A stretch of DNA of 64,000 nucleotides from Ruegeria marina (GTDB lineage Bacteria; Pseudomonadota; Alphaproteobacteria; Rhodobacterales; Rhodobacteraceae): assembly GCF_900101475.1 (NCBI RefSeq), contig NZ_FMZV01000005.1, positions 248,001-312,000 of the forward strand. Reading direction: 5' to 3'. The position numbers were made by a program, and so were the translations under genes. Position 1 is the first letter of the stretch. Each line of letters begins with the position of its first letter. Under the pieces are notes generated by a model. The model was not told where the DNA came from and searched no databases. It worked only from the letters and a program-made list of their open reading frames with translations. This document shows positions 31,690-48,285 of the stretch, piece after piece.

Positions 31690-32412
31690 TCAGATCTGCA
31701 GGGAACCCACGCTTGCTCCGCCGCAGACATAGAGCGTCTGGCCGGTGACAAAGCTGTTTTCGGGGTCGCAGAAGAACAGGAAGGCGCGGGTGACGTCATC
31801 GACCCGGCCGATGCGGCCCACGGGGATGCGCTGGGCCAGCGCCTGCTGCTGCGGGCTGTCCTTTTCCACGATGCCCCAGAAATTGTCGGTCAGGATCGGC
31901 CCCGGCGCCACCACGTTGACGGTGATGCCATGCGGCGCCAGTTCCAGTGCCCAGGTGCGGGCCATGCCGATCATCCCGGCCTTGGTGGCGCCATAGGCGG
32001 TGCGGGTGGGTGCGCCCAGCGCCGCGCGGGATCCGTTGAACATCACCCTGCCAAAGCGGCGCGCCTTCATCGCGGGCAGGAACGCCTTGAGCAGTGTCAG
32101 CGCCGAGCCGAGGTGCAATTGCGCCAGCCCGGTGATGTCCGAGGGTTCGGCCTCTTCGATCAGGTTGGGCCAGATCAGGCCTGCATTGTGGATCAGGTGG
32201 GTGACCTCGTGGTTGGCGGCCACCTGGGCTGCGGCCTCGGCCACCGCCTGTGGGTCCAGGAGATCGGCCTCGACGGAAAACAGGCGGGTATGGGTGAATT
32301 CGGGCGCGTGGCGCGAGATCGAGACGACGGTATAGTCGCGCGCCAGGAGCGCCTGCGCCAGGTCCGCGCCGATGCCCTTGTTGCCTCCGGTGATGACGGC
32401 GGTATGGGTCAT
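31690..32412 (-). CDS. Short-chain dehydrogenase/reductase
   Basis: 240 residues with the NAD(P) motif TGGNKGIG at residues 8-15, HNAG at about 75-78, and the catalytic set S128 and Y140-GAT-K144. It looks like a functional classical SDR. It is the last gene of the leftward catabolic operon. Its upstream neighbour is the cyclase, overlapped by four bases. In the pathway proposed here it might interconvert dioxindole and isatin or handle a hydroxyacyl intermediate, but the substrate is not visible from sequence. Confidence 0.9.
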   Translation of the reverse strand: MTHTAVITGGNKGIGADLAQALLARDYTVVSISRHAPEFTHTRLFSVEADLLDPQAVAEAAAQVAANHEVTHLIHNAGLIWPNLIEEAEPSDITGLAQLHLGSALTLLKAFLPAMKARRFGRVMFNGSRAALGAPTRTAYGATKAGMIGMARTWALELAPHGITVNVVAPGPILTDNFWGIVEKDSPQQQALAQRIPVGRIGRVDDVTRAFLFFCDPENSFVTGQTLYVCGGASVGSLQI

Positions 32413-33185
32413 GTCTCCTCCACCAGCGCCAGCACCCTCAGCGGGCTGCCGGTGCCGTTCTTGATCTTCAGGGGGGCCGCGATCAGCACCGCGCCGGTTG
32501 CAGGTAGCTGGTCGAGGTCCGAGAGGCATTGCAGCCCGAAGCGTCCCGCGCCGTGCAGGTAGTAATGCGCCGGGTAGGGCGGGGTATAGTGGCTGCCTTG
32601 TCCCGCATCGGTGCCCACGGTTTCCACGCCAAAGCCGCGAATGTCGCGCTGGTCGATCAGGAAGCGGATCGCTTCCGGCGTCGGCCCCGGCGAATGCGGC
32701 CCGTCCTCGCGCATGTTGAGGTATTCGGCCCCGCGCCGTTTCGACCAGTCGGTACGCATCAGCACCCAGGCCCCGGACGGGATGCGGCCATGGCTGGCCT
32801 CCCATGCCTCGATCAGCGGTACGGTCAGCTCGAAGTCCTCGTCTCTCGCCGCGCCTTCGGAACAGTCGATGACACAGGCCGGGCCGATGAAATCGGCCGG
32901 GGCGATCTCGTCCACCGCCGCGCGCGGCAGGTCGCGGCCCGAGATCCAGTGCGCGGGCGCGTCGAAATGGGTGCCGGTGTGTTCCGACATCGAGATATTG
33001 TGCCATTTCCACGCCGGGCCGCGATGGTCATAAGCGCTGATCTCCTCCATCCGGAAGCGGGCGCATTGGCCAAACTCGGGCGGAAGGATGATGACCGGGA
33101 AATCGGGGTCGAGCGTATGGGTGAGGTCCACCACCCGGATTTCACCGGTAGCGATGCGGGAGGCGAAATTGGCAAGCGTGCTCAT
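32409..33185 (-). CDS. Cyclase-family metal hydrolase (isatin hydrolase/kynurenine formamidase-like)
   Basis: 258 residues. The metal-binding signature H69-TGTHFDAPAH79-W is complete, with the three His and the Asp in the usual places. A His is present in the N-terminal VVDLTHTLDPDFP and TDW in WVLMRTDWSKR. This family includes kynurenine formamidase and isatin hydrolase, both of which open an N-acyl or lactam bond next to an aniline. Start 33185 has GGGAGGAGAAGG upstream and overlaps the DUF35-SDR stop. With a Rieske oxygenase, CoA ligase and aldolase-type genes alongside, isatin hydrolase is the best guess. Other amidohydrolase or cyclase roles remain possible. Confidence 0.85.
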   Translation of the reverse strand: MSTLANFASRIATGEIRVVDLTHTLDPDFPVIILPPEFGQCARFRMEEISAYDHRGPAWKWHNISMSEHTGTHFDAPAHWISGRDLPRAAVDEIAPADFIGPACVIDCSEGAARDEDFELTVPLIEAWEASHGRIPSGAWVLMRTDWSKRRGAEYLNMREDGPHSPGPTPEAIRFLIDQRDIRGFGVETVGTDAGQGSHYTPPYPAHYYLHGAGRFGLQCLSDLDQLPATGAVLIAAPLKIKNGTGSPLRVLALVEET

Positions 33186-34438
33186 GCGCCTTCTCCTCCC
33201 AGCGTCATTTCGCGTTCCAGCACCTTGGGGTCGCGGCGGAACCGGTCGCGCAGGTCCTGAGCGATGTCGCCGCACCAGACGTCTTCCAATCCCCGTTGCA
33301 GCCCGTCCACGACCGACCGCGCCAGCGCCAGCGCCGTCACGCGCGGCGGCGGCAGCGGCTGGTACCAGTCGTCCTCTTCGGTGGGGCCAAAGAAGACGTT
33401 CATCACCCTCAGCCCCGAGGGCCGGAATTCGGCGCGCAGCGACTGGCTGAGCGAATAGGCCCCGGCCTGGCTGGCGGAATAGGCGCCAAAGGGGCGGGCG
33501 TTGCTCAGCGCGCCGACGCTGAGCAGGTTGACCCAGGCGGCGGCGGCGTTCACTCCGTCGGCGGCGCGGGCGCACATGCCGGGGCCAAAGGCCTGCGCCA
33601 GCCGCATCAGGCCGAGGTAGTTCACTTCCAGTTCGTCGCGGGCAAAGCCGGTGTCGCCCCGGTCGAGCACGCCGCCGGGGCGCAGGAAGCGGGCGGTGTT
33701 GATCAGGATATCGGTCTTGCCGCCGATCTCGCCCGCCAGTTTCTGCACGGATGCGGTGTCGGTCACATCCATCGGCAGGATTTCGACCCCCAGCGCCTGT
33801 AGTTCGGCGCGCTGCGGATAGGGTCGCCAGCTTTCCGGCTCTCCCGCGAAAATGATCGCGGCGCCCGCCTGTTTCAGGGCGCGGGCCAGCGCGGGCGCCT
33901 GCGCGCTGCGGGCGTCGGTGATCAGTACGCGTCGGTGTTTGGGATCGGCAGAGAGGGCACGCATCAGCGGATCGTCCTCCATGTTCGGGGTGTCGGTTTC
34001 GGGCAGGGCGACCAATACGCCCTGTCCTGCCTGGTCAAGCCGGGCCACCACGCGGACACGGGCGTGGCGCGCCACGTCGCCATGTATATGGGCCAGCACC
34101 GTGGGGCCTGCATCGAGCTGCACGGTGCCCGCGCGCCACGGCATCCGCTCGCGGAAGTAAAGGCGGGGCGAGGTCTGCACCGTGGTCTCGGCGATCAGCG
34201 TGCCACCCGGCGCCATGTCCTGCCACGGCAGGTCGGTGGACAGACAGGCGGAACAGGCGTCGCGCGGCGGGTATTGCACCTTGCCGCATTCGGCGCAGCG
34301 TTGCAGGGCGAACCGCCCCTCGGCGGCGGCGGCGGTCAGGTGAAGGGCGGCACGCGACCGCACCTCGGGCGGGCGGGTCGGTGAAACCGACCGTTTCTGC
34401 GGGTTTTTCTTGGGTGGCGGGGCCAGAGGATGGGTCAT
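33182..34438 (-). CDS. DUF35 (zinc ribbon/OB-fold) protein fused to a degenerate SDR
   Basis: 418 residues. Residues about 35-145 are a DUF35 module with rubredoxin-like cysteines C48, C51, C62 and C65 and an OB fold (TLIAETTVQTSPRLYF). Residues about 165-418 have an SDR fold that lacks the glycine-rich TGxxxGIG motif (VLITDARSAQ instead), and the catalytic YxxxK has become Y320-SAS-Q324. The SDR half is therefore probably not a working dehydrogenase. DUF35 proteins partner thiolase-like proteins and, in steroid degradation, form Ltp2-type retro-aldolases. Its stop/start overlaps with both neighbours support joint function with the thiolase-like protein upstream. Confidence 0.88.
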   Translation of the reverse strand: MTHPLAPPPKKNPQKRSVSPTRPPEVRSRAALHLTAAAAEGRFALQRCAECGKVQYPPRDACSACLSTDLPWQDMAPGGTLIAETTVQTSPRLYFRERMPWRAGTVQLDAGPTVLAHIHGDVARHARVRVVARLDQAGQGVLVALPETDTPNMEDDPLMRALSADPKHRRVLITDARSAQAPALARALKQAGAAIIFAGEPESWRPYPQRAELQALGVEILPMDVTDTASVQKLAGEIGGKTDILINTARFLRPGGVLDRGDTGFARDELEVNYLGLMRLAQAFGPGMCARAADGVNAAAAWVNLLSVGALSNARPFGAYSASQAGAYSLSQSLRAEFRPSGLRVMNVFFGPTEEDDWYQPLPPPRVTALALARSVVDGLQRGLEDVWCGDIAQDLRDRFRRDPKVLEREMTLGGEGA

Positions 34439-35610
34439 GCGCGCGCTCCGGTGGTCAGCACTGCGGCGCTGGAACACAGGCCCCGGTCGAAGTTGATCAT
34501 GCCAAAGCCCGACACAAGCGCCCGTTCCGCGTCCGGCACTTGTGTGCCGCCGGCCTGTCCGGTGACCTGGCGGATCGCCTCGACCATGCCGATGAAACCG
34601 CCCGCCGCCCCGGCCTGACCAGCCGACAGTTGGCCGCCCGAGGTGTTGTGCGGGAAGTCGCCCGAGATGGTCAGATCCTTGTTGCGGAGATACGCGGGGC
34701 CCTCGCCCTTGGCGCAGAACCCCAGATCCTCGATCTGCATCATCGAGATCACAGGATAGTCGTCATAGGTCTGCACCAGATTCATCTCCTGCGGTCCCAT
34801 TCCAGCCTGATCCCAGAGCACGTCCACATCCATCGTCCAGCCCCCGCGCAGCTGGATCGGGTCGTCGGCATGGGCATTGTGTCGTTCAATGGCTGCCGCC
34901 AGCCTTGCATAGGGCAGGCCAAGAGACTGCGCGCGCTCCTCGGACATGACCAGAAACGCCTCGGCCCCCGCGCAAGGCATCACACAGTCAAAGAGCGCGA
35001 TCGGTTCGGCGATAGGGCGGGCGTCCAGGTATTGCTGCATGGTCAGCGGTTTCTTCATCACCGCGTTCGGGTTTTTCAGCGCATTGTCGCGCTGGGCCAC
35101 GCAGAGGCGCCCGAAATCCTCGCGCGTGGCGCCGTATTCGGTCATGTAGCGGTCGGTGAGCAGGGCAAAGCTGGCGTTGGGGCCGCCGTAGCCATAGGGG
35201 TAGCTCGCGTCCATGGCGAAGCGCGAGAAGCTCGAAAGGAGTTGGCGGAAACTGTCGATATGGTTGGTATCGCCCGCGACGCAGGCGATGATCTCGGCAT
35301 CGCCCGCCTGTATCGCGCGCGCCGCCCGGCGCAGCGCCACGCCTGCCGAGGCGCCGCCCATCGGGATATGGTCGAGCCAGCGCGGGCAGAGGCCCAGATG
35401 CTGGGTCAGTCCTACGGCGGTATCAGGGAAAAGCGTGAAGGACGACACCGAGAACCCATCGAGTTCAGCCGGTTTCAGCCCCGCCGCCTGCAGCGATCCG
35501 CGCAAGGCGGTGGCGATCCAGTGATGCGCGGTGTCGATGGAATAGCGCTGATAGGGGGTCGAGAAGGGCGCGACCAGCGCCACCCCTTCATAAGAGGCAG
35601 GCCGCGCCAT
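34435..35610 (-). CDS. Thiolase-like (Ltp/SCP2-type) protein without thiolase catalytic residues
   Basis: 391 residues of the thiolase fold, from the lipid-transfer/SCP2-thiolase branch. The nucleophile loop reads HIPMGGASAGVALRR, without the thiolase cysteine. The C-terminal loop reads NTSGGQLSAGQAGAAGG, without the usual GHP histidine. Classical thiolysis is therefore unlikely. In steroid catabolism such proteins act as aldolases once bound to a DUF35 partner, and exactly that partner is the next gene (four-base overlap). The start at 35610 forms TGATG with the CoA-ligase stop. Confidence 0.87.
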   Translation of the reverse strand: MARPASYEGVALVAPFSTPYQRYSIDTAHHWIATALRGSLQAAGLKPAELDGFSVSSFTLFPDTAVGLTQHLGLCPRWLDHIPMGGASAGVALRRAARAIQAGDAEIIACVAGDTNHIDSFRQLLSSFSRFAMDASYPYGYGGPNASFALLTDRYMTEYGATREDFGRLCVAQRDNALKNPNAVMKKPLTMQQYLDARPIAEPIALFDCVMPCAGAEAFLVMSEERAQSLGLPYARLAAAIERHNAHADDPIQLRGGWTMDVDVLWDQAGMGPQEMNLVQTYDDYPVISMMQIEDLGFCAKGEGPAYLRNKDLTISGDFPHNTSGGQLSAGQAGAAGGFIGMVEAIRQVTGQAGGTQVPDAERALVSGFGMINFDRGLCSSAAVLTTGARA

Positions 35611-37223
35611 CACGCCACCTGCCGTTTCTTGAGATGGGTGAGGGTCACGGTTGCGGGATCGTCCAGCAGCGCCTGCGCCATCTCCTTCAGCGCCTTGCGC
35701 TGGATCTTTTGCGTGGGGGTCAGGGGCAGCGCATCGACAAAGGCGATGTAGCCCGGCACCTTGTAATAGGCCATCTGGGTCAGCGCCCAATCGGCGATCT
35801 GAACGGCCAGCTCGGGCGAGGGGTCGGCTACCTTGAGACATGCAAAGACCTCGTCGCCGCGCAGCGCGTCGGGCACGGCGGCCACGCCTGCCGCCTGAAT
35901 GGCAGGGTGGCGCATCAGCACGCTTTCGACCTCGACCGCGGCGATATTTTCGCCCGACCGGCGGATCACGTTCTTCTTGCGGTCCACGAAGAAGAACCGG
36001 CCCCCGGTATCGCGGCGCACGATATCGCCGGTGTGAAACCAGCCGCCTTGCCAGGCTTCGGCGGTGGCTTCGGGATTTTTGTAATAGTGCGAGAAAAAGC
36101 CGTAGCGCGGATCAGGACCGGCGTTGCGCACCAGCAGCTCGCCGGGTTCGTCCGGAGCCGCGTCCTGCCCGGTGTCGGTCACGACACGGGCGTCGACCCA
36201 ACCTTCGGCCCGACCAAGGCAGGACTGGCCTATCAGCCGGTCGGGCGTGTGGGCGGCGATCACCGCGCCGGCGCCGGTTTCGGTCATCGCCCAGGCCTCG
36301 ATCAGGGGAAAGCCGAAGCGCGCTTCGAACCCGGCCTGCAGCTTGGGATCGATCCCGGCGCCGAAGCCGAAGCGCACCTGATGGGACCGCTCCTCTGGCG
36401 CCTCGGGCAAGGACATCAGGATCGAGGGCATGACGCCCAGGTAATGCAGGCAGGTGGCGCGCGCGGCGGTCACGTCGGCCCACCAGCTGGACGGGTGGAA
36501 CCGGTCGAGGGCGATCAGGCAGCCGCCCACGGTGACCATCGCCATGAAGGAATAGGCCATCGCGTTCATGTGGAAAATGGGCAGTGGCGTGATCATCCGC
36601 TCGCCATCTTCGGTCAGGGAGGCGACGCCGCCCAAATCGGCATACCAGCGGCCCGCCAGCAGGAAATAGGCATTGGGCAGCACGCAGCCCTTGGGGTTGC
36701 CGGTGGTGCCCGAGGTATAGAGCACCGCTGCCTCGCGCGCCTCTCCGGTCAGGGGCTCGGCCACGGCGGCATTTGCGCGGGGCGGGGGCGGTGTGTCATC
36801 GGCCCCGATGACCGGGGCCGCGAGGCCCGCCGCCGCGGCGGCGGCGCGCAGTTCGTCAAGGCGGGCGGGCAGAGCGATGACCAACGCGGGTTCGGCATGG
36901 CCCAGCAGGTATTCCAGTTCGGCGGCGCGCAGGTCGGGATTGATCGGCACGATCGAGGCGCCGATGCGGTTGAGCGCGGCAAAGACCTCGAAGAACTCGG
37001 GGCGGTTTTCCAAGAGCACAGCGACGCGCATGCCGGGTCCGTATCCGGCACGTTCCAGCACCTCGGCGCGGGTATCGACCCGGACCAGGAACGTGCCGTA
37101 GGAGACCGGCCCCGCCTCGATCCCATAGGTCGCAGCCGTTCCGGGCAGCACCTCAAGCACCGGCCGGTCCGGCCAGCGCGCCGCCGTGGCCGCAATGGCG
37201 GCATAGACGCTTTCGGCGCTCAT
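35610..37223 (-). CDS. Acyl/aryl-CoA ligase (AMP-forming)
   Basis: 537-residue ANL-superfamily enzyme. It has the P-loop motif AVLYTSGTTGNPKGC, the A5 motif WAMTETGAG, the adenylate-binding WFHTGDIVRRD and a C-terminal lysine in LTPTQKIQRKAL. It activates a carboxylate to its CoA thioester using ATP; FVDRKKNVIRRSGENI is a hallmark of the fatty/aryl acid branch. The position downstream of the dioxygenase subunits suggests that it activates a ring-hydroxylated acid. Start 37223 overlaps the beta-subunit stop (ATGA). Confidence 0.92.
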   Translation of the reverse strand: MSAESVYAAIAATAARWPDRPVLEVLPGTAATYGIEAGPVSYGTFLVRVDTRAEVLERAGYGPGMRVAVLLENRPEFFEVFAALNRIGASIVPINPDLRAAELEYLLGHAEPALVIALPARLDELRAAAAAAGLAAPVIGADDTPPPPRANAAVAEPLTGEAREAAVLYTSGTTGNPKGCVLPNAYFLLAGRWYADLGGVASLTEDGERMITPLPIFHMNAMAYSFMAMVTVGGCLIALDRFHPSSWWADVTAARATCLHYLGVMPSILMSLPEAPEERSHQVRFGFGAGIDPKLQAGFEARFGFPLIEAWAMTETGAGAVIAAHTPDRLIGQSCLGRAEGWVDARVVTDTGQDAAPDEPGELLVRNAGPDPRYGFFSHYYKNPEATAEAWQGGWFHTGDIVRRDTGGRFFFVDRKKNVIRRSGENIAAVEVESVLMRHPAIQAAGVAAVPDALRGDEVFACLKVADPSPELAVQIADWALTQMAYYKVPGYIAFVDALPLTPTQKIQRKALKEMAQALLDDPATVTLTHLKKRQVA

Positions 37224-37696
37224 GGCAGGAGCTGGATATTGCCGAAGGCGGCGTCGCAATTCAGCAACTCGACCTTCTTGCCCGCGATGCGGAACGCCCC
37301 ATCCACCATCGCCAGATCATGCGTCACTGTCAGCGCCAGCAATTGCTGTTCGTCCAGCCGGGTTTCGACATAATGCATGTTGGTCACGGTCTGGAACCGC
37401 CCCGCCTCGGGTTCGAACAGATCAACGAAGGGCCGCTGGATCACGTGGTGGCAGCGCGACTTGGGTTTCTGCGAGAAGGTGCGCTCGCCGTTCAGCCGCT
37501 CGACCCTGAGGCGCAGCATGAAGTTGTCCTCGTAAAGGAACGAGGTGGCGTTGACCGGATCGGCCTGCTTGTAGTCGAGCGGCATCCAGTAGACCGCGTC
37601 GGGCAGCCACAGGTCGAGCCATTCGGTATAGCGGCCCTCGTCCAGCATCCGGGTCTCGGCATAGATGAAGTCGATCACGTCGTCGCGGGTGGTCAT
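37220..37696 (-). CDS. Aromatic-ring-hydroxylating dioxygenase, beta subunit
   Basis: 158-residue SnoaL/NTF2-fold small subunit (DVIDFIYAETRMLDEGRY, EWLDLWLPDAVYWMPLDY) that builds the alpha3beta3 oxygenase; it holds no metal. The GAGGGG nine bases upstream favours ATG at 37696. A longer start at 37717 overlaps the alpha stop in ATGA style and is equally plausible. It is always paired with the alpha subunit, here directly upstream. Confidence 0.9.
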   Translation of the reverse strand: MTTRDDVIDFIYAETRMLDEGRYTEWLDLWLPDAVYWMPLDYKQADPVNATSFLYEDNFMLRLRVERLNGERTFSQKPKSRCHHVIQRPFVDLFEPEAGRFQTVTNMHYVETRLDEQQLLALTVTHDLAMVDGAFRIAGKKVELLNCDAAFGNIQLLP

Positions 37697-37713
37697 GGTT
37701 CCATTCCCCTCGC

Positions 37714-39039
37714 TCATTCAGCGGCGACGCCGGGGGCGTCCTCCATCGACATGGTCATGAACTTGGCCCAGGCGTGGAACTGGTTGCGCATCTGCCGTTC
37801 GGTGGTGCCGTTCTCGACCGCCTCGGTCTCGAAATCCTCAGGCCCGGTGTGCAGTCGCCGGATATCGACCCATTGCATGCCCTCGGCGTGCAGCCCCTCC
37901 TGCGCGCGCTCGTACATTTCCAGATCGTCATGGCCGACGATCGAGGTGGGGGCGTTGATCATCCGGTTGTACATGGCCGACATCGCGGTCAGTTGCTCGG
38001 GCGCGCCGACCAGCCGGTAGACATAGCTTTCCACCAGCGTCCGGTCGGCCCCCAGCGGGATGAAGTTGCGCAGTTGGGTCAGCGGCGCCTTGACCATGAT
38101 ATTGGGGAAATAGACCGTGTTGTGCCGGTTCTCGTCCAGGATCGCCTTGGCGCGCTCCTCGCCATAGCTTTCGACCATCGCCTCGAAATAGCCCGGGATG
38201 GCGTCGTATTTCGAATGGATCGACATGTTGACGCCGGTATGGCCGTGGCCGTTGGGCCAGGTGCGGATGCCCATATCCTCGAAGAATTCATAAGGCGACA
38301 TGAAAGGCGCGATGATCTGCATCGCGGGCGGGCGCGGCTCAGGGTTGCCCATCTGTTCATAGATCTTCACCGCCGTCCCGGCCGAGCTTTCATGCGCGAC
38401 CATCGGGTGGCAGGTGTCGGTCTGGTTCTCGACCAGCATTTTCCAGTTGCACTTGTGCATGTAGCGCAGCGGCGGGCCGGAGATCTCGACCCGTCCCGCA
38501 GGCGCACGGTCGACCATGTTGTCGATGGAACTGAGGCTGCCGCCAAAGAAGTCCTGAAACCCGATGCCGTCCTCGGCCAGCCGGGCAAAGACGAAGCCAC
38601 GGTAATTGTGCACCGCGCCGACCGCCTGCATGCCCTTGCCGTTCTGGGTCTCGGACAGGCCGGTGCCCTCGTAGCCCTTCTTCAGCGGGATGGCGAGCAG
38701 GCAGCCGTCGGTCTTGAAGCTCCAGGCGTGATAGGGACAGCGAAAGAACTTGCCGGTGTTGCCGGCCCGGTCGATGGCGATCTTGGTGCCCTTGTGGGGG
38801 CAGCGGTTGTAGAGAACCTTTACCTCGCCATCGGTGTGGCGCACCATGATCACCGGCTGGTCACCCACTTGCGTGGTGATGTAGTCACCCTTGTTCGGAG
38901 TCTGGCTGTCATGGCCGACAAAGACCCAGGCATTGGTGAAGAGGTGGCGCATTTCCAGTTGGTAGACCGCATTGCTGATATAGACGTCGCGATGGACCCG
39001 GCCGGGTTGCACCATGGCCCTGATATCGTCCGCGTTCAT
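37714..39039 (-). CDS. Rieske ring-hydroxylating dioxygenase, alpha subunit
   Basis: 441 residues. The Rieske [2Fe-2S] ligands are C80-P-H82 and C101-PY-H104. The mononuclear iron site is in WKMLVENQTDTCHPMVAHESS (D-x2-H-x4-H). The alpha/beta/reductase arrangement matches two- or three-component oxygenases such as those that open indole-3-acetate (iac/iad type) or benzoate degradation. The substrate cannot be read directly. Start at 39039 follows GGGAGGAAGG. It would insert O2 into an aromatic acid at the head of the leftward operon. Confidence 0.93.
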   Translation of the reverse strand: MNADDIRAMVQPGRVHRDVYISNAVYQLEMRHLFTNAWVFVGHDSQTPNKGDYITTQVGDQPVIMVRHTDGEVKVLYNRCPHKGTKIAIDRAGNTGKFFRCPYHAWSFKTDGCLLAIPLKKGYEGTGLSETQNGKGMQAVGAVHNYRGFVFARLAEDGIGFQDFFGGSLSSIDNMVDRAPAGRVEISGPPLRYMHKCNWKMLVENQTDTCHPMVAHESSAGTAVKIYEQMGNPEPRPPAMQIIAPFMSPYEFFEDMGIRTWPNGHGHTGVNMSIHSKYDAIPGYFEAMVESYGEERAKAILDENRHNTVYFPNIMVKAPLTQLRNFIPLGADRTLVESYVYRLVGAPEQLTAMSAMYNRMINAPTSIVGHDDLEMYERAQEGLHAEGMQWVDIRRLHTGPEDFETEAVENGTTERQMRNQFHAWAKFMTMSMEDAPGVAAE

Positions 39040-40048: not shown

Positions 40049-40504
40049 ATGACAGACACGCAAGACGACACCTTTGTTTCGGGATACCTGCTGTATCTTC
40101 TCGCGGCCTCCAGCGAGCAGGCCAGCACGCAGTTTCACGATCATGTTCGCGCACGCGGGCTGCGGGTACCTGAATGGCGGGTGCTGGCCTGCCTCGTTGA
40201 CAATGACGGGATGATGATCACCCGGCTGGCCCGGCTTTCGCTGATGGAACAGTCGCGGATGACGCGAATCGTCGACCAGATGGATGCGCGCGGACTGGTG
40301 ACTCGGGGCGCCGACGCCAACGACAAGCGGCGGGTCCGGGTGCGTCTGACCGCAGAAGGGCGGGACCTGGCCGAATCCCTGGTCAAGGATGCCCGCCGGC
40401 ACGAAACCCGGCTCTTGTCGGCACTGGCCGATACCGATGCCGCCCGCATCAAGGGCGTCCTACGGACGCTTCTGGACGTGCTGGACAAGCCGGATCCGGC
40501 ATGA
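40049..40504 (+). CDS. MarR-family regulator of the dioxygenase operon
   Basis: 151 residues with a winged helix-turn-helix (VPEWRVLACLVDNDGMM, LARLSLMEQSRMTRIVDQM, and the wing TRGADANDKRRVRVRLTAEG). MarR proteins are usually repressors released by aromatic acids. It is divergent from the reductase and shares the palindromic operator region with it. ATG 40049 is chosen; an earlier in-frame ATG at 40007 lies inside the operator. Confidence 0.92.
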   Translation: MTDTQDDTFVSGYLLYLLAASSEQASTQFHDHVRARGLRVPEWRVLACLVDNDGMMITRLARLSLMEQSRMTRIVDQMDARGLVTRGADANDKRRVRVRLTAEGRDLAESLVKDARRHETRLLSALADTDAARIKGVLRTLLDVLDKPDPA

Positions 40505-40618: not shown

Positions 40619-41635
40619 ATGAAGCATTTCGCACGTCTTGCTGCCGCCGCGGTCATCTGCGCCGGCACCAGCATGGCCGCCTGGGCCGCCGATACAACCT
40701 TGCGCATTTCCACCTGGCTGCCGCCCACCCACGGGATCAACACCGAGATTTTTGCAGGGCTGATCGGCATGATCGAAGAGGCCAGCGGCGGGCAGGTCAG
40801 TGGCGAGCTGGTCTTTGGCCTGGCGCCGCCGCCGGCACAAATGGACCTGATTCAGGACGGTGCCGCCGATATGGCCATCATCTTCCATGGCTATCAGCCG
40901 GGCCGGTTCATCGGCACCAAGCTGATCGAACTGCCCGGATTCGAGGGCAATGCCGAGGCTGCCTCGGTCGCTTACTGGCGTGTGCACGAGGCGCATCTGG
41001 CCAAGCTGGACGAGCATCGCGGCGTCAAGCTGATTTCGCTGAACACTCATGGTCCGGGCCAGATCCACACCAGCAAGGACGTTGCCACGCTGGCTGATCT
41101 GAATGGTCTGAAGACCCGGATCGGCGGCGGCGTCGCGGGCGATGTCGGCGCGGCACTGGGTCTGGTGGGCATCAACGTGCCGGCGCCCAAGGTCTATGAG
41201 ACGCTGGAATCTGGGGCCGCCGACGCGGTGGCGATGAACGTGGGCGAGCGCGTCGGTTTCAAGCTGAACGAGGTGGCCAAGAACCTCTACGACATGCCCG
41301 GCGGGTTCTATCGCGGGTCGTTCGCGATCATCATGAGCCAGGAAACCTTCGACAGCCTGCCCGCCGATGTGCAGGCGGCGCTGGATGAAAAGGTGTTCGG
41401 CGAACCGGCCAGCCGGATGGCGGGCGCGGCCTGGGACAAGTCGGACATGATCGCCTATGAAGCGACCAGGTCGGCCGAGGGCACGAAGATCGTCGAGGCC
41501 TCGGCCGAGGATCAGGAGAAGTTCGCCGCGATCGCGGCGGAGGTGACCGCCAAGGTCCTGGCCGAACTCGAAGCCGCAGGCGTGGACGCGCAGGCCGCTT
41601 ACGAGATGGTAAAGGCCGAGATGGCCGCGAACTGA
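40619..41635 (+). CDS. TRAP transporter substrate-binding protein (DctP type)
   Basis: 338 residues with a Sec signal peptide ending AAWAADTTLRIS and the DctP fold, including the conserved region QDGAADMAIIFHGYQPGRF and the arginine-containing TRIGGGVAGDVGAALGLVG that normally clamps a carboxylate. It binds a carboxylic substrate in the periplasm and feeds the DctQ/DctM pair downstream. The context suggests an aromatic or indolic acid. SD AGGGAGG lies before the ATG. Confidence 0.94.
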   Translation: MKHFARLAAAAVICAGTSMAAWAADTTLRISTWLPPTHGINTEIFAGLIGMIEEASGGQVSGELVFGLAPPPAQMDLIQDGAADMAIIFHGYQPGRFIGTKLIELPGFEGNAEAASVAYWRVHEAHLAKLDEHRGVKLISLNTHGPGQIHTSKDVATLADLNGLKTRIGGGVAGDVGAALGLVGINVPAPKVYETLESGAADAVAMNVGERVGFKLNEVAKNLYDMPGGFYRGSFAIIMSQETFDSLPADVQAALDEKVFGEPASRMAGAAWDKSDMIAYEATRSAEGTKIVEASAEDQEKFAAIAAEVTAKVLAELEAAGVDAQAAYEMVKAEMAAN

Positions 41636-41690: not shown

Positions 41691-42185
41691 ATGATGCGAC
41701 TTTTCTCCCTTTCCGTCTGGCTGCCGGGGCTTCTGGCCTCGGCCGCGCTGTTCGTGCTGATGGTCATGACCTTTGCCGATGTGGTCCTGCGCTCGGTCTT
41801 CAATGCGCCGATCGAGGTGGCGGCCGATCTGACACGGCTCCTGATGGCCGTGATGGTATTTTCGGTCATGCCGGTCCTGTCGGGCCGGAATGCCCATGTG
41901 AGCGTCGATCTGCTGGACGGCGCGTTCAGCCGGTTTCGCCTGTCGCGCTGGCGGGATGCGGCGGTTTGCCTGTTCTGTGGCGCGCTTCTGTTCTGGCCGG
42001 CGAAACGGGTGTTCGACCTGGCCGAACGGTCGCGATCCTACGGTGACGTGATGGAGTACCTGCGCCTGCCGCTGCATGTCGTCGGCTGGTTCATCGCGGC
42101 GATGACACTGGTCACGGCGGTGGTGCTGGTGGTGCGCGGCGTGCTGCTGATCGTGGCGCCGCGCCTGGCGAGGAGCGCGCCATGA
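41691..42185 (+). CDS. TRAP transporter small membrane subunit (DctQ type)
   Basis: 164 residues with four predicted helices, beginning MMRLFSLSVWLPGLLASA. Family-typical SAALFVLMVMTFADVVLRSV and ALLFWPAKRVFDLAERSRSY are present. It forms the permease with the large subunit. The gene overlaps it by four bases (ATGA). It is preceded by a hairpin after the binding protein. Confidence 0.92.
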   Translation: MMRLFSLSVWLPGLLASAALFVLMVMTFADVVLRSVFNAPIEVAADLTRLLMAVMVFSVMPVLSGRNAHVSVDLLDGAFSRFRLSRWRDAAVCLFCGALLFWPAKRVFDLAERSRSYGDVMEYLRLPLHVVGWFIAAMTLVTAVVLVVRGVLLIVAPRLARSAP

Positions 42186-43495
42186 CCGCCTCCCTCATCG
42201 GTTTTGCCGCGGTTCTGATCCTGATCCTCGTGCGCGTGCCCATCGCCTTTGCCATGGGATTCGTCGGCATGGTGGGCTTCATGCTGGAAAGCAATTTCCG
42301 GGCCTCGATCTCGATGGTGGCGCGGCTGATTATCGACACCAGCCAGGACTATGGCCTGTCGGTCGTGCCGCTCTTTATCCTGATGGGGCTGTTCGTGAAC
42401 AAGGGGGGCATCAGCCGCGAACTCTATGCCGCTTCGAACGCCTTTCTCGGCCATCTGCGCGGCGGTCTGGCCATGGCGACCATCGTGGCTTGCGGCGGGT
42501 TTGCGGCGATCTCGGGCTCGTCGCTGGCCACTGCGGCCACCATGGCCAAGGTCGCCATGCCCGAGATGCGCCGCTTCGGTTATTCCGACGAGCTTTCCAC
42601 CGCATCCATCGCGGCGGGCGGCACGCTGGGCATCCTGATCCCGCCCTCGGTGATCCTTGTCATTTACGGCCTGCTGACCGAGACCTCGATCGGCAAGCTG
42701 TTCGTCGCGGGGATCGTGCCCGGTATGCTGGGCATCCTGCTGTATCTCTGCGCGGTCCGTTTCACGGTCTGGCGCACCCCCGAAGCCGGCCCCGCCGGCC
42801 CGCGCGTTTCGATGCGTGGGCGTCTGGCCGCCCTGCGCGAGGTCTGGGCTGTCGTGCTGCTGTTCTTCCTGGTGATCGGCGGGCTTTACGGCCTGTTCGA
42901 CGTGCCGCCGCTGAACCTGAATTTCTCGCCCACCGAGGCGGCGGGGATGGGCGCAATGGGCGCTTTCCTGATCGCCCTGGCGCGGCGGCGGCTGAGCCTG
43001 AAGGACACGCTGGAGGTGCTGCTGGAAACCTCGATCACCGCAGCCAGCCTTTTTGCGGTGCTGATCGGGGCCTGGATATTCTCGAACTTCGTCAACGTGG
43101 CGGGGTTGCCCGCGGCGCTGAGCGACCTGATCACGGCTTATGACCTGCGCCCCTGGCAGGTGATGGCGGTGATCCTGGTGATCTACATCTTGCTGGGCTG
43201 CGTTTTCGAGTCGCTGTCGATGCTGCTTTTGACCGTGCCGATCTTCTTTCCGCTGGTCACTTCGCTGGGCTACGATCCGATCTGGTTCGGCATCATCGTT
43301 GTCGTGGTGACCGAAATCAGCCTGATCACCCCGCCCGTGGGGCTGAATGTCTTCGTCCTCAAGGGCGTGGTGGGCGACGTGACCACCGGCACGATCTTTC
43401 GCGGGGTCACGCCGTTCTGGGTGGTGGACATCATCCGGCTGGCGCTGTTGCTGGCGGTGCCGGCGCTGGCGCTCTATCTGCCGGGGCAGATGTAG
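42182..43495 (+). CDS. TRAP transporter large membrane subunit (DctM type)
   Basis: 437-residue polytopic protein, with ITLIPPS-like repeat elements (GTLGILIPPSVILVIYGLLTE near residue 145 and VTEISLITPPVGLNVFVLKG near 375) that mark the two inverted halves of the elevator-type transporter. It imports the substrate captured by the binding protein using the sodium gradient. It is the last gene of the rightward TRAP operon and converges on the thioesterase gene, one base away. Confidence 0.95.
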   Translation: MTASLIGFAAVLILILVRVPIAFAMGFVGMVGFMLESNFRASISMVARLIIDTSQDYGLSVVPLFILMGLFVNKGGISRELYAASNAFLGHLRGGLAMATIVACGGFAAISGSSLATAATMAKVAMPEMRRFGYSDELSTASIAAGGTLGILIPPSVILVIYGLLTETSIGKLFVAGIVPGMLGILLYLCAVRFTVWRTPEAGPAGPRVSMRGRLAALREVWAVVLLFFLVIGGLYGLFDVPPLNLNFSPTEAAGMGAMGAFLIALARRRLSLKDTLEVLLETSITAASLFAVLIGAWIFSNFVNVAGLPAALSDLITAYDLRPWQVMAVILVIYILLGCVFESLSMLLLTVPIFFPLVTSLGYDPIWFGIIVVVVTEISLITPPVGLNVFVLKGVVGDVTTGTIFRGVTPFWVVDIIRLALLLAVPALALYLPGQM

Positions 43496-43496
43496 G

Positions 43497-43928
43497 TCAG
43501 AACCCGAGTTCTTCGGGGGTTGCGAGGCGTGCTTGCAGCGCCTCGCGCATGGCATCCGGCCAGGCAATCGAAATATGCTTGTCGAGGTCGCTGGCGGCGA
43601 GGACCTGGGTCGAGGACCAGCGGATTTCCGCGCCGCAGCTGATCCGGTGACGGACAGTGACCGAAGAACGGCCGACCTTTACCACCCCTACCTCGAATTT
43701 CAGCGTTTCGCCAAAGAACGAGGGTTTCGAGAAATCGCAGCTCAGGTGCACCGTGGGCGTGCCCCAACGCTCGTTCCAGATGATGTGGTGCCACGGGAAA
43801 CCCATCACCGCCCAGAATTCTTCGTTCACGCCATTCAGGATATCCAGATAGGACGGGAAATAAGCGGTTCCCGAGATGTCGCAGTCGCCGAACCGAAGCT
43901 CGCGCTCGGTGATGAAGATCTTGTCCAT
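43497..43928 (-). CDS. Hot-dog acyl-CoA thioesterase (4HBT-like)
   Basis: 143 residues, MDKIFITERELRFGDCDISG, with the DxD(x)SG...Y catalytic segment (D15/D17) of 4-hydroxybenzoyl-CoA-type thioesterases and the hot-dog helix FPSYLDILNGVNEEFW. The gene diverges from the second MarR and the ior genes. In the proposed route it could release anthranilate or an aryl acid from its CoA ester. The longer frame to 44045 lacks support. Confidence 0.85.
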   Translation of the reverse strand: MDKIFITERELRFGDCDISGTAYFPSYLDILNGVNEEFWAVMGFPWHHIIWNERWGTPTVHLSCDFSKPSFFGETLKFEVGVVKVGRSSVTVRHRISCGAEIRWSSTQVLAASDLDKHISIAWPDAMREALQARLATPEELGF

Positions 43929-44042
43929 GATGCGGGTCTGTCCTTTGGCTGGTCCTTTTGTGTCTTGCCCCTGATTGCCGGGCCGGACGCCTTTGGCAAG
44001 CCCGAAGCGGGAAATCGGTGCTGCTAAACCGGGCGAGGGGAT

Positions 44043-44070: not shown

Positions 44071-44107
44071 GGGAACTCTGGTTGCGGAAAACGACCGAAA
44101 GACCCAG

Positions 44108-44587
44108 ATGGCCGAATCGACCGATCACAGCGAACACCTCAGGGAACTGGCCGAGATCGGCCTCGATGGTTATGCGCCCTATCTGATGAATCGCATCATG
44201 GGGCGTTACAACGCGAACCTGCGCAAGGAAATGACAGCGCTGGGGCTGAGCACCGCCAAGATGCGGGCGCTGGCAATCCTGTCTGCCAAGGATGGCCTGC
44301 CCATCGGGGCGCTGGGTGTCTACGCGGTGGTCGAACAATCCACCCTGTCGCGCGCGCTGGACGGGTTACAGACCGACGGGCTGGTGCGGCGCGAGGTGGA
44401 CAGCGACGATCAACGGTCGAGCCGCATCTATCTGACGCCCGAGGGGCGGGCGGTCTATGACCGGCTCTGGCCGCATATGCGCGCCAGCCATGACCGGATG
44501 TTCAAGGGCATTTCCTCGTCGGAACGTCATGCATTCCTGTCGACCTTGCAAAGGATGCTGTCCAACATCCGCGTGCACGAGTTCTGA
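44108..44587 (+). CDS. MarR-family regulator upstream of ior genes
   Basis: 159 residues with the winged helix-turn-helix GLSTAKMRALAILSAKDGLP, IGALGVYAVVEQSTLSRALD and the wing RREVDSDDQRSSRIYLTPEG. It sits just downstream of the operator-like repeats and six bases ahead of iorA, so it probably regulates itself and the ior operon. It is only distantly similar to the MarR at 40049. Confidence 0.9.
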   Translation: MAESTDHSEHLRELAEIGLDGYAPYLMNRIMGRYNANLRKEMTALGLSTAKMRALAILSAKDGLPIGALGVYAVVEQSTLSRALDGLQTDGLVRREVDSDDQRSSRIYLTPEGRAVYDRLWPHMRASHDRMFKGISSSERHAFLSTLQRMLSNIRVHEF

Positions 44588-44593
44588 GGCGGC

Positions 44594-46741
44594 ATGGCGG
44601 AGCGATCCTTCAAACGCGAGGTGCAGGACCTCAAGCTCGGGGCGGGGGAGACCTTCACCGGCGAGGGTATTCTGGCGATCACAAAGGCGCTGCTTGAATC
44701 CGGCGTGGGATATGTCGGCGGCTATCAGGGCGCGCCGATCAGCCACCTGATGGATGTTCTGGCCGATGCGCAGGAGTTGCTGGGCGAGCTGGACGTGCGG
44801 TTCGAGGCGAACGCCTCCGAGGCCGCCGCCGCCGCCATGCTGGCGGCCTCGGTGCACTATCCGATCCGGGGGGCGGTCACATTCAAGGGCGCGGTGGGGG
44901 TCAACGTGGCCTCGGACGCGCTGGCCAACCTGGCATCGTCGGGCGTGACCGGTGGCGCGCTGGTGATCGTGGGCGAGGACTATGGCGAGGGCTCCTCGAT
45001 CATGCAGGAGCGCAGCCATGCCTTTGCGATGAAGTCGCAATTCTGGCTGCTCGATCCGCGCCCGAACCTGCCGTCCATCGTCCGGGCGGTGAAACAGGGG
45101 TTTGCGCTGTCCGAGGCGTCGAACACGCCGGTCATGCTGATGGTGCGGATCCGCTCCTGCCACGTGACCGGCCAGTTCGACTGCGCCGACAATGTGCGCC
45201 CGCCGCTCAGTGTGCGCGAGGCGCTGTCCGATCCGCGCCGCGATTTCGCCCGCGTGGTCTTGCCGCCGATGTCCTATCAGCACGAGCGCGACAAGGTCGA
45301 AAACCGTTGGCCCGCGGCCGAACGCTTCATCATCGAGCAGGGGCTGAACGAAGTGTTTGGACCTGAGATCGCTCCGGTGGGTCTGGTTGTGCAGGGCGGC
45401 ATGTACAACGGCGTGATCCGCGCGCTGCAACGGCTGGGCCTTGCCGATATCGAAGGGCGTTCGGCGATCCCGATCTATGTGCTCAACGTGACCTATCCGC
45501 TTGTCGGCGACGAGTTCCTGCGGTTCGCCGCCGGTAAGGAGGCGCTGCTGGTGGTCGAAGAGGGGCAGCCCGAATTCATCGAACAGGGGCTGGCGGCGAT
45601 GCTGCACCGGGCAGGTTCGTCGGTGCGCCTGCATGGCAAGGGCCTCTTCCCTATGGCGGGCGAATATACCGGCCAGATCATGCTCGACGGGATCGCGGGG
45701 TTTCTGAAGGACACCGTGCCGCAGCTTTTGCCCGGGCAGGTCATCGCCCCCAATGCACTGCCGCCCGAGAAGCCGGACCTGTCGAAAACCGTGCCGATCC
45801 GGCCGCCGGGGTTCTGCACCGGCTGCCCGGAACGGCCCATCTTTGCCGCGATGAAGCTGGTCGAGCAGGAACTGGGCAAGCACCAGATCACCGGCGATAT
45901 CGGTTGCCACCTCTTTGCCGCCCTGCCGCCCTTCGAGATCGGCGGCTCGACCATGGGATATGGGCTTGGCCCGGCCTCGAACGCGGCGTTTGACGGCGGC
46001 GGCGCGCGGCGGGCGGTCTCCTTCATCGGCGATGGCGGATTCTGGCACAACGGGCTAAGCTCATCGATCGGCAACATGGTGTTCAACCGGTCGGACAGCG
46101 TGGCCATCGTGGTAGACAACTACTACTCGGCGGCCACCGGCGGGCAGGATGTGCTTTCTTCGCGCGCCAGGAATCCATCCAAGGCGACCGGCAACCCGAT
46201 TTCCAAGGCGCTCGAAGGGGTGGGGGTGAAATGGGTGCGCCAGATCGACCGCACCTATGACGTGGGTCATATGCGCGACACCATCCGCGAGGCGCTGACC
46301 ACCGACTACGACGGGCCAAAGCTGATCGTGGCCTCGTCCGAATGCATGTTGAACCGGCAGCGGCGCGAGAAACCCTTGCGCGCCCAGGCGATCCGCGAGG
46401 GGCGCCGGGTCGAGGCGCCCCGGTTCGGAGTGGACGAGGATATCTGTACCGGCGATCACGCCTGTATCCGGCTCTCGGGCTGTCCCTCGCTCTCGCTCAA
46501 GACGCTTGACGACCCTCTGCGCGATGATCCGGTGGCCAGCATCGACCAGACCTGCGTCGGCTGCGGCAATTGCGGCGAGGTGGCGGATGCAGCGGTGCTC
46601 TGCCCCTCGTTCTATCGCGCCGATCTGGTGCACAATCCGGGGCGGTGGGAGGCATTGCTGGCAGGCTGGCGCAGCCGCATCATCGCCTGGCTGCAAGCGC
46701 GCCGCGCCCGGCGGGTGCTTGATTTCGGAGATGCCGCATGA
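44594..46741 (+). CDS. IorA-like 2-oxoacid:ferredoxin oxidoreductase, alpha subunit (TPP + 8Fe ferredoxin)
   Basis: 715 residues. The N-terminal half holds the pyrimidine-binding domain, the middle FCTGCPERPIFAA, TGDIGCHLFAALPPFEIGG and the TPP-diphosphate motif GDGGFWHNGLSSSIGN, and the C-terminus a ferredoxin module (CTGDHACIRLSGCPS, then CVGCGNCGEVADAAVLCPSF). This is the IorA arrangement, which oxidatively decarboxylates aryl-pyruvates or aryl-glyoxylates to aryl acyl-CoA while reducing ferredoxin. The four-base overlap with the beta subunit supports a heterodimer. Confidence 0.92.
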   Translation: MAERSFKREVQDLKLGAGETFTGEGILAITKALLESGVGYVGGYQGAPISHLMDVLADAQELLGELDVRFEANASEAAAAAMLAASVHYPIRGAVTFKGAVGVNVASDALANLASSGVTGGALVIVGEDYGEGSSIMQERSHAFAMKSQFWLLDPRPNLPSIVRAVKQGFALSEASNTPVMLMVRIRSCHVTGQFDCADNVRPPLSVREALSDPRRDFARVVLPPMSYQHERDKVENRWPAAERFIIEQGLNEVFGPEIAPVGLVVQGGMYNGVIRALQRLGLADIEGRSAIPIYVLNVTYPLVGDEFLRFAAGKEALLVVEEGQPEFIEQGLAAMLHRAGSSVRLHGKGLFPMAGEYTGQIMLDGIAGFLKDTVPQLLPGQVIAPNALPPEKPDLSKTVPIRPPGFCTGCPERPIFAAMKLVEQELGKHQITGDIGCHLFAALPPFEIGGSTMGYGLGPASNAAFDGGGARRAVSFIGDGGFWHNGLSSSIGNMVFNRSDSVAIVVDNYYSAATGGQDVLSSRARNPSKATGNPISKALEGVGVKWVRQIDRTYDVGHMRDTIREALTTDYDGPKLIVASSECMLNRQRREKPLRAQAIREGRRVEAPRFGVDEDICTGDHACIRLSGCPSLSLKTLDDPLRDDPVASIDQTCVGCGNCGEVADAAVLCPSFYRADLVHNPGRWEALLAGWRSRIIAWLQARRARRVLDFGDAA

Positions 46742-48285
46742 CCCGGATGGACAGCGTGACGGCGCCGCAGGGCGCAGACAGCGCCCGAGCCATCACCAAG
46801 CTGGTGATCATGGCGGTGGGCGGGCAGGGCGGCGGCGTGCTGACCGGCTGGATCGAGGCGGTGGCCCGCGCGGCGGGCCGCGCGGTGCAGGCGACCTCTG
46901 TCGCGGGCGTGGCGCAGCGCACCGGGGCCACCATCTATTATGTCGAGATCGCGCCCGAAGGGGTCGAGCACCCCGTCTTTTCCCTGGCCCCTGCGGCAGG
47001 AGACGTGGACATCGTCATCGCCGCCGAGATGATGGAGGCGGGCCGCGCCATTCAGCGCGGCTTCGTGACACCGGACCGGACGGTGCTGATCGCTTCGGAG
47101 CACCGGGCGCTGGCTGTGTCGGAAAAGATGGTGCCGGGCAATGGCATCGCGGCGGCCGAGGAGGTGATGGCCGCTGCGGAAGTCGCGGCGCGACGGTTCC
47201 TGAGCGCCGATATGGAGCGGCTGGCGGTCGCGAAAGGTTCGGTCATCTCGGCCAGCCTGTTCGGAGCACTGGCGGGGTCGGGCGCATTGCCGTTTACGCG
47301 CGCCGAGTTCGAAGCGGCAATCCATGCCTCGGGCAAGGGCGTGGAGGCTAGCCTCGCCGCCTTTGCCGCCGGGTTCGAGGCCATGGTCAACCCGACCGCT
47401 TCCGAGAACGCCCAACCGTCAGCGCCGGTAGAGAAGGCGCCAACAGGACCTGCCCGTGACCAGGCCGCGTGGCAGGCGCTGGAGCGCCGGGTAGACGCTC
47501 TGCCGGCAACGGTGCAGGAGATGGCGCGCGCCGGGCTGCGCAAGGTTGTGGCATTCCAGGACTGCAATTATGGCGCCGAGTATCTCGATCGGCTCGCGGC
47601 ACTGGCCGGGCGCGACGATCCGGCGAAAGGTCACGCGCTGACCGTCGAGGCGGCGAAGCATGTCGCCAATGCCATGGCCTATGATGATGTGATCCGGGTG
47701 GCCGACCGCAAGACGCGTGCCGCGCGCCGGGCGCGGATCGATGCCGAGATGGGGCGGACCCAGGCGCAGGCGATGCAGGTGACCGAGTTCCTGCATCCGC
47801 GCGCCGAGGAAATCGCCTCGATGCTGCCGGCGGGCCTTGGCGCAAGAGTGCAGGCGTCGGAGGCCTGGATGGCGCGGCTTGATCGCTGGTTCAACCGGGG
47901 CCGCCGCATTCGCAGCGACCGGCTGAGAGGGTTCTTGCAACTCTACCTGCTGGCCGGGCTGAGGGGCTATCGGCGGCGTACGCTCCGGCACGCGCAGGAA
48001 CAGGCGCATCTGGCCGAATGGCTCCGCAAGGTCGGCGAAACTCTCGATGGCGACTATGATCTGGCGGTCGAGCTGTTGCGCTGCCGCAGGCTGATCAAGG
48101 GCTATTCCGACACCCATGCGCGCGGGCTGTCCAAGTTCGACAAGGTGATGGCTGGCGCCGGTCTGGTTGCCGGGCGGGCGGATGCTGCCGACTGGGTGCG
48201 ACGGTTGCGCGAGGCGGCCTTGCAGGATGAGGAAGGAAAGGCGCTCGACGGGGCGCTCGAGACGATCCGGTCTTTTGCCGGGTAA
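46738..48285 (+). CDS. IorB-like 2-oxoacid:ferredoxin oxidoreductase, beta subunit
   Basis: 515 residues. Residues about 20-190 form the gamma-type oxidoreductase domain (IMAVGGQGGGVLTGWIEAVA, SVAGVAQRTGATIYYVEI). A C-terminal helical extension of unknown role (DUF6537-like, about 230-515) contains CNYGAEYLDRL and KFDKVMAGAGL. It pairs with IorA. Aerobic proteobacteria use such large IorB versions for aryl-oxoacids. It closes the operon before a hairpin and a repeated GGAGTATTT element. Confidence 0.9.
   Translation: MTRMDSVTAPQGADSARAITKLVIMAVGGQGGGVLTGWIEAVARAAGRAVQATSVAGVAQRTGATIYYVEIAPEGVEHPVFSLAPAAGDVDIVIAAEMMEAGRAIQRGFVTPDRTVLIASEHRALAVSEKMVPGNGIAAAEEVMAAAEVAARRFLSADMERLAVAKGSVISASLFGALAGSGALPFTRAEFEAAIHASGKGVEASLAAFAAGFEAMVNPTASENAQPSAPVEKAPTGPARDQAAWQALERRVDALPATVQEMARAGLRKVVAFQDCNYGAEYLDRLAALAGRDDPAKGHALTVEAAKHVANAMAYDDVIRVADRKTRAARRARIDAEMGRTQAQAMQVTEFLHPRAEEIASMLPAGLGARVQASEAWMARLDRWFNRGRRIRSDRLRGFLQLYLLAGLRGYRRRTLRHAQEQAHLAEWLRKVGETLDGDYDLAVELLRCRRLIKGYSDTHARGLSKFDKVMAGAGLVAGRADAADWVRRLREAALQDEEGKALDGALETIRSFAG

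Follow-up and report, generated by a model that had tools for sequence, protein, structure and literature searches.

The iad indole-3-acetate locus of Ruegeria marina: a proposed IadG/IadH retro-aldolase and the isatin hydrolase IadI

The window analysed here is a 64,000-nucleotide stretch of Ruegeria marina DNA (NCBI RefSeq assembly GCF_900101475.1, contig NZ_FMZV01000005.1, positions 248,001 to 312,000 of the forward strand), and the genes in question lie at its positions 31690-48285. Judged by gene content and sequence, these genes are a marine-type copy of iad, the already described locus for degradation of indole-3-acetate (IAA) (PMC9613470, PMC12633357). Sequence comparisons and structure models suggest, with a probability of roughly 0.7, that IadG and IadH of this locus act as a retro-aldolase leading to isatin, that IadI is the isatin hydrolase and that the IorA/IorB pair (IorAB) carries the product on to anthraniloyl-coenzyme A (anthraniloyl-CoA).

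On the minus strand, from 39983 down to 31690, the window encodes a reductase, Rieske oxygenase alpha and beta subunits, an acyl-CoA ligase, a thiolase-like protein, a DUF35 domain joined to a short-chain dehydrogenase/reductase (SDR) domain, a cyclase-family hydrolase and a separate SDR. The plus strand carries two MarR regulators, a DctPQM tripartite ATP-independent periplasmic (TRAP) importer and the IorA/IorB pair, with a 4HBT thioesterase gene on the minus strand in between. The gene set and order iadC-J match those of Variovorax iadC-J, for which PMC12633357 gives a reductase (iadC), large and small oxygenase subunits (iadD and iadE) and an acyl-CoA synthase (iadF), followed by the annotations acetyl-CoA acetyltransferase (iadG), alcohol dehydrogenase (iadH), kynurenine formamidase (iadI) and dehydrogenase (iadJ). 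IadG-J are given no function in the available portions of PMC10374108.

IadD (37714-39039, minus strand) has the Variovorax IadD structure 9O71 first among its solved relatives, with 234/431 residues identical, and 7YLS is its other top relative. IadR (40049-40504, plus strand; start picked from the alignment to 3CDH) is identical to 3CDH at 131/151 positions (E 1.5e-79). Of the proteins measured in PMC9613470, 3CDH, a Ruegeria pomeroyi MarR protein from the IadR group, bound IAA most tightly (dissociation constant 0.237 uM), and by this orthology the window's IadR would be an IAA-sensing regulator. The same study found that every tested strain with an iad-type locus, R. pomeroyi included, degraded IAA, and it named IorA/IorB (iadA/iadB) as exclusive iad markers. 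The IadD/IadE Rieske pair, IorA/IorB, an IadR-type MarR protein and the iadC-J order are all present in the window. The identification as iad follows from the closeness of IadD to 9O71, the likeness of IadR to 3CDH and the C-J order, which was found on one strand (C-D-E-F-G-H-I-J) in 40 of 54 related loci, a recurrence beyond what chance would give.

The window thus shares with the iad loci of Variovorax paradoxus CL14, Bradyrhizobium japonicum and R. pomeroyi the iadC-J order, iadA/B (IorAB), IadR and the route from IAA through isatin to anthranilate (PMC9613470, PMC12633357). It differs in having an adjoining TRAP importer, where the preprint PMC12633357 names an ATP-binding cassette (ABC) solute-binding protein (IadK2), and in having a thioesterase gene and a racemase-like gene nearby. 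An earlier sequence-only reading of this DNA had given the parts between 31690 and 48285 with the right domains and coordinates; every gene that it listed is real, and it omitted the intact SDR gene iadJ (31690-32412, minus strand), which the published pathway needs. Its route from IAA to anthranilate through isatin is the published one for iad. Since the locus is the described iad set, its claim that the pathway was undescribed was wrong.

Conservation was read from 80 named loci, the best of at least 520 confirmed candidates from one scan with an IadG alignment. Of these, 54 were available with at least 20.5 kb (the loci scored for gene order above) and 26 were shorter, so that all gene counts are lower bounds. 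Genes over the identity thresholds were found for G and H in all 80 loci, I in 75, F in 70, D in 67, J in 65 and C in 60 (for C, at least 40% identity); IorA (at least 55%) was found in 29, DctM (at least 70%) in 19 and the thioesterase (at least 60%) in 5. The closest named loci among the matches listed are from Ruegeria, with IadG 94 and 93% identical. Variovorax-type loci were sought with the 9O71 stretch in 399 genomes of the family of one genome, G379, giving 21 matches at E <= 1e-200. Nine were read (L020 from G379 and eight more); the label Burkholderiales-type used for them below is our inference. In L020, L150, L151 and L152, IadD is 94-95% identical to Variovorax IadD. In eight of the nine (L020, L150-L155 and L157) there is another, more divergent E-D oxygenase pair, its D being 46-49% identical to window IadD, whereas the window has one E-D pair.

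IadG (34435-35610, minus strand; residues numbered from a translation beginning one codon ahead of the ATG) is a thiolase-fold protein. In alignments its Gly87 stands where the thiolase-like protein 7YVY has Cys and CtSal has Gly, and this residue is Gly in 80/80 named and 9/9 Burkholderiales-type loci. The sequence-only reading had called the protein Cys-less, which holds for the nucleophile position; other Cys residues are present. Tyr283-Asp284-Asp285-Tyr286 (YDDY), Gln328 and Gln333 are invariant in the 80 named loci, and YDDY is kept in 9/9 Burkholderiales-type loci. The substrate of the steroid retro-aldolase TcLtp2 is a tertiary beta-hydroxyacyl-CoA. In PMC12329534 the relevant hydroxyl of that substrate is at C17 (C17-OH), the Tyr of the YDHF/YDCY motif is the catalytic base in TcLtp2/CtSal, and CtSal uses Cys304 as the acid, close to which lie Gln347 and Gln352. 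A manual count of chain numbers in the alignment equates IadG Gln328/Gln333 with CtSal Gln347/Gln352. The Sal acid Cys304 is not kept, and IadG has Asp285 there in 80/80 named loci. The place of the Ltp2 acid Tyr344 is a gap in the alignment of IadG with 6OK1, and by counting CtSal numbers it falls on Gln333.

IadG and IadH were each modelled as a single chain. The AlphaFold2 model of IadG (35 sequences, mean predicted local distance difference test score 82.6) was compared with the PDB using Foldseek; ranks 1-3 were CtSal and TcLtp2, and a benzoylsuccinyl-CoA thiolase came at rank 18. IadG/IadH thus resemble the steroid retro-aldolases Ltp2-ChsH2(DUF35) and Sal-Shy(DUF35) (6OK1, 9MYR) in the thiolase fold, the absence of the nucleophilic Cys, the catalytic Tyr in YDxx, the DUF35 partner and, presumably, a beta-hydroxyacyl-CoA substrate. 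They differ from Sal in Asp285 in place of Cys304, from Shy in that the fusion partner of the DUF35 region is SDR-like and not a MaoC domain, and from the steroid aldolases in a substrate that would be a small indole compound. By our own arithmetic, dioxindole-3-acetate (DOAA, C10H9NO4) equals isatin (C8H5NO2) plus acetic acid (C2H4O2), with no redox step. For reassigning IadG from thiolase to putative retro-aldolase, the comparison of relatives (Gly87 and YDDY, 80/80) is good evidence. Residues, fold and context make the formation of isatin by an IadG/IadH retro-aldolase well supported, as the sequence-only reading had predicted for the thiolase-like/DUF35 pair. A search of openly licensed papers found no printed retro-aldol proposal for iad, which is weak evidence of absence, and within the same scope no reassignment of IadG/H or IadI was found in print.

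IadH (33182-34438, minus strand) combines a DUF35 region (PF12172, PF01796) with an SDR domain (PF00106). The four zinc Cys of the DUF35 region (Cys47/50/61/64) are present in 80/80 named loci. None of the 74 scorable named loci has the SDR Tyr+Lys pair (9 have Tyr only, 6 have Lys only and 59 have neither; 6 more were gapped), and the first Gly of TGxxxGxG is replaced by Asp or Glu in 77/77 ungapped loci. For IadJ in the same set, Tyr+Lys was found in 67/67 scorable of the 68 loci with a J match, and TGxxxGxG in 68/68. In 8/9 Burkholderiales-type loci, Phe replaces the catalytic Tyr of IadH, and Lys is present in all eight. A classical dehydrogenase role for IadH was rejected, given that the active-site pair is missing in 74/74 scorable named loci, with one exception, L156, among the nine other loci. 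IadH is proposed to be the DUF35 partner of the IadG aldolase, with a degenerate SDR domain.

IadI (32409-33185, minus strand) is identical at 204/257 positions to the crystallised isatin hydrolase LaIHA (5NNB), for which PMC6117287 reports isatin hydrolysis and describes the metal motif. The IadI encoded by the iad operon of Roseibium aggregatum IAM 12614 contains the LaIHA sequence without a mismatch, and C-J are joined in that operon by the thioesterase and TRAP genes. The motif HxG[T/A]HxDxPxH (HTGTHFDAPAH in the window) was found in all 75 loci with an I match, and a further signature is GLQC in 69 of these, GLAS in 1, GIAS in 2 and none of these in 3; GLQC is kept in 9/9 Burkholderiales-type loci. 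IadI and LaIHA (5NNB, PMC6117287) are therefore alike in sequence, in HxGTHxDxPxH, in GLQC and in operon position in R. aggregatum, and no important difference was seen. By sequence, IadI is an isatin hydrolase, the orthologue of LaIHA. Because its substrate is isatin, the preceding step is expected to yield isatin. The cyclase-family protein had been predicted to be an isatin hydrolase, with its placement relative to kynurenine formamidases to be checked; the prediction agrees with this orthology to an iad-operon gene, and the nearest solved relatives are isatin hydrolases.

The gene for the IorA-like alpha subunit of a thiamine pyrophosphate-dependent 2-oxoacid oxidoreductase (iadA, 44594-46741, plus strand) matches TIGR03336 at 267.7 bits, under the cut-off of 650.9. 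The IorB-like subunit with DUF6537 (iadB, 46738-48285, plus strand) matches PRK08312 over its cut-off, as well as PF20169 and PF01558. No relative of IorA was found among the solved structures searched. A survey of 398 genomes spread over the phylum gave 10 with IadG matches at E <= 1e-60; eight of these, among them the genome of the window, reach at least 60% identity. IorA (E <= 1e-150) was present in 7/7 genomes with IadG of at least 60% identity vs 2/22 without (Fisher p 2e-5), in a comparison unmatched by kinship: three of the seven positives are of one genus, the 22 controls came from the phylum-survey listing, the host's family makes up 20 of these controls but one of the positives, and the remaining two controls carry a distant IadG homologue. 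IorAB adjoins C-D-E in 9/9 Burkholderiales-type loci. In locus L167 (genome G392) a gene for an isatin-hydrolase-like paralogue and a MarR gene directly adjoin IorA, and in L166 (genome G265) such a pair lies about 4 kb from IorBA; the G265 and G392 paralogues are 53 and 48% identical to IadI. Co-occurrence thus supports an action of IorAB after the isatin hydrolase, in line with the sequence-only reading. Anthraniloyl-CoA is a plausible product, and the pathway may have exits besides free anthranilate.

In the proposed pathway, IadCDE would put one oxygen on IAA and, after hydration, IadJ would oxidise the product to DOAA, as published for Variovorax and here by homology. The sequence-only reading had let the oxygenase alone make DOAA; PMC12633357 instead divides this work between a monooxygenase and the dehydrogenase IadJ. 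IadF would then form DOAA-CoA, which like the TcLtp2 substrate is a tertiary beta-hydroxyacyl-CoA. In complex with the IadH DUF35 domain, IadG would cleave this ester by retro-aldol. Tyr283 would take the 3-OH proton, the C3-CH2 bond would break and Asp285, in the place of Sal Cys304, would protonate the acetyl-CoA enolate, giving isatin and acetyl-CoA. IadI would open isatin to isatinate, as shown for its orthologue LaIHA, and IorAB (iadAB) would convert isatinate by oxidative decarboxylation to anthraniloyl-CoA. The latter could be released as anthranilate or passed to an aminobenzoyl-CoA monooxygenase/reductase. IadR would sense IAA, and the TRAP importer would probably import it.

Several observations weigh against this pathway, beyond the uneven kinship in the IorA comparison. 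The Foldseek margin is narrow, with the aldolases at E 3.8e-27 and the putative thiolase 4U4E, at rank 4, at E 4.1e-27. The motif is YDDF in 3/3 distant IadG homologues outside iad-type loci, so the Asp is not iad-specific. An acid of the Asp285 type has no characterised precedent among the retro-aldolases seen, and a Cys stands two residues past Gly87 in 3/80 named-locus IadG proteins. The Burkholderiales-type IadH of L156 keeps both Tyr and Lys, and the solved structure nearest to the IadH model is the SDR 5U4S, which contains NADP; the SDR fold is therefore kept and cofactor binding is possible. The strongest counter-evidence comes from the preprint PMC12633357, in which C8H7NO2 (isatin plus two H) is seen in an iadI deletion strain and anthranilate is regained with iadC-K2, a region apparently without iadAB. 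Neither C8H5NO2, the formula of isatin, nor iadA or iadB is named in its available portions.

The return of anthranilate bears first on an alternative in which the retro-aldolase is right and IorAB is dispensable: IorAB would serve a related 2-oxoacid, and peroxide or different enzymes would oxidise isatinate. This alternative overlaps our explanation up to isatinate; we consider it unlikely, though worth keeping in mind. In the Variovorax deletion background, iadC-K2 was enough for anthranilate (PMC12633357), and G379 has a second IorA-type gene (53%) elsewhere. The 7/7 vs 2/22 distribution of IorA, the position of IorAB beside C-D-E in all nine Burkholderiales-type loci and its nearness to isatin-hydrolase paralogues in L166 and L167 argue against it. 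The pile-up of C8H7NO3 and C7H7NO on iadC-K2 overexpression in PMC12633357 would also fit a missing isatinate oxidoreductase. With IorAB as the isatinate oxidoreductase, the anthranilate formed from iadC-K2 would reflect redundancy or slow oxidation.

The C8H7NO2 bears on the proposal of the 2025 preprint, made from annotation, that IadG as a thiolase and IadH as an alcohol dehydrogenase remove the acetyl side chain reductively to give dioxindole. We regard this as improbable. The annotations of IadG/IadH agree with it, and C8H7NO2, explained in PMC12633357 by reductive side-chain removal, builds up in the iadI deletion and also when a strain expresses iadC-H, J and K2 but not iadI. Against this stand the Gly at the nucleophile place of IadG in every named and Burkholderiales-type locus, including the four with IadD 94-95% identical to that of Variovorax, and the Phe for the catalytic Tyr of IadH in 8/9 Burkholderiales-type loci. 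Moreover, the DOAA alcohol is tertiary, therefore a beta-keto thioester for a thiolase cannot form, and a dioxindole product does not suit IadI, the isatin hydrolase orthologue. The retro-aldolase reading needs the C8H7NO2 of the iadI deletion to be isatin reduced off-pathway. That IadI is instead a kynurenine formamidase or broad amidase with isatin as a side product is very improbable and was rejected: PMC12633357 annotates it as formamidase/amidase and it matches the arylformamidase model TIGR03035, but at 35.6 bits, far under the cut-off of 223.05, chains named kynurenine formamidase match it only at E 2.6e-6 or weaker, and both the 204/257 residues shared with crystallised LaIHA and the signature counts speak for isatin.

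Beyond anthraniloyl-CoA, several candidate steps were considered. The 4HBT-type thioesterase (43497-43928, minus strand; PF13279) had been given the release of anthranilate. The gene is present, and the step is weakly supported, with a homologue of at least 60% identity in just 5/80 named loci; a match at E <= 1e-20 was found in 2/7 IadG genomes vs 1/22 (Fisher p 0.14), so a core role is not established and we treat it as accessory. A TIGR03228-type anthranilate 1,2-dioxygenase as the host's next step was also rejected, with 0/7 matches over the cut-off and the best match being BenA, over the benzoate cut-off; AndAc types were not sought genome-wide. The host genome has, on contig C20, a gene for an 803-aa, two-domain protein matching PRK08255 at 1013.8 bits, slightly under the cut-off of 1078. 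This model is named for salicylyl-CoA 5-hydroxylase, and we take it to cover 2-aminobenzoyl-CoA monooxygenase/reductase (ACMR) as well. An ACMR-like gene (E <= 1e-150) occurs in 7/7 IadG genomes vs 8/22 others (p 0.004), a link to iad that is suggestive only, because three of the seven are of one genus and the controls are unmatched by kinship.

A search of the 90 loci L016-L105 found ACMR-like genes in L016, L021, L071 and, in part, L040; L095 was dropped, its match covering the flavin mononucleotide (FMN) part alone at 26%. In G265 the ACMR-like match starts 305 bases from the IorA match. These genes, near iad or IorAB, lie at L016:7461-9848, L021:14052-16325, L071:14912-17236, L040:2-568 and G265 C55:117711-120014. 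Some loci thus link the monooxygenase/reductase homologue with G-H-I or with IorAB, whereas the host gene on C20 does not adjoin iad. In L021 the gene is accompanied by acyl-CoA-dehydrogenase-like genes and by others that look RidA-like by eye. The ACMR-like genes near iad or IorAB may belong to a lower anthraniloyl-CoA pathway. As a separate observation, L016/L167 (G392) and L017/L166 (G265) are F-G-H-I loci with J absent nearby and IadD not found genome-wide (E <= 1e-60). They have open reading frames that resemble, by eye only, a luciferase-type monooxygenase and a VOC-family protein, and through these a different indole compound may enter the lower steps shared with iad.

A broader joint claim is tentative, and we put it at somewhat short of even odds. 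In its first part, IadG/IadH would be a third type among the thiolase-fold retro-aldolases, pairing Tyr with Asp (vs Tyr-Tyr in Ltp2 and Tyr-Cys in Sal) and having its DUF35 partner on a dead dehydrogenase domain. Its second part is that Ruegeria-like bacteria pass anthraniloyl-CoA from IorAB straight to the aminobenzoyl-CoA monooxygenase/reductase, with no free-anthranilate end.

The remaining oxygenase and ligase genes, all on the minus strand, are iadC (39051-39983), for the FAD/2Fe-2S reductase of the Rieske oxygenase (Pfam Fer2, NAD_binding_1), iadE (37220-37717; PF00866) and iadF (35610-37223; PF00501/PF13193). On the plus strand, the TRAP importer comprises DctP (40619-41635; PF03480), DctQ (41691-42185; PF04290) and DctM (42182-43495; PF06808). 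The second MarR gene (44108-44587) adjoins iorAB, and its product has 3CJN as its closest solved relative (E 3.1e-90). Past iadB lies a gene for a hydantoin-racemase-like protein (48386-49159, plus strand; PF01177), possibly accessory, which is near G-H-I in 14 loci (L016-L019, L021, L032, L040, L054, L079, L084, L086, L092, L097 and L100). All 15 copies, the window's included, have GHFQD and PGG/PAG at what we take to be the two catalytic-Cys places of hydantoin racemase. A second TRAP importer (DctM, DctQ, DctP) follows directly at 49178-52137. An apparently separate ring-opening cluster at 58484-62382 has a caprolactamase-alpha-like gene (490 bits, cut-off 1000) and an adjoining long open reading frame. 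IadG relatives (E <= 1e-60) were also found in 38 plasmid records, including 14 from Sulfitobacter and 9 from Roseibium/Labrenzia; 35 of the 38 are predicted to be non-mobilizable and 3 conjugative.

The iad pathway is studied for plant auxin balance, and its middle steps have so far been assigned from annotation. The lasting value of this analysis is the reassignment of IadG/H and IadI away from the ketothiolase, alcohol dehydrogenase and amidase of the preprint, for which sequence comparison gives good evidence. If IadG/IadH is indeed a retro-aldolase and IadI an isatin hydrolase, the route to isatin would be chemically complete, the DUF35-aldolase group would reach beyond steroids, and the solved enzyme LaIHA would be tied to its pathway.

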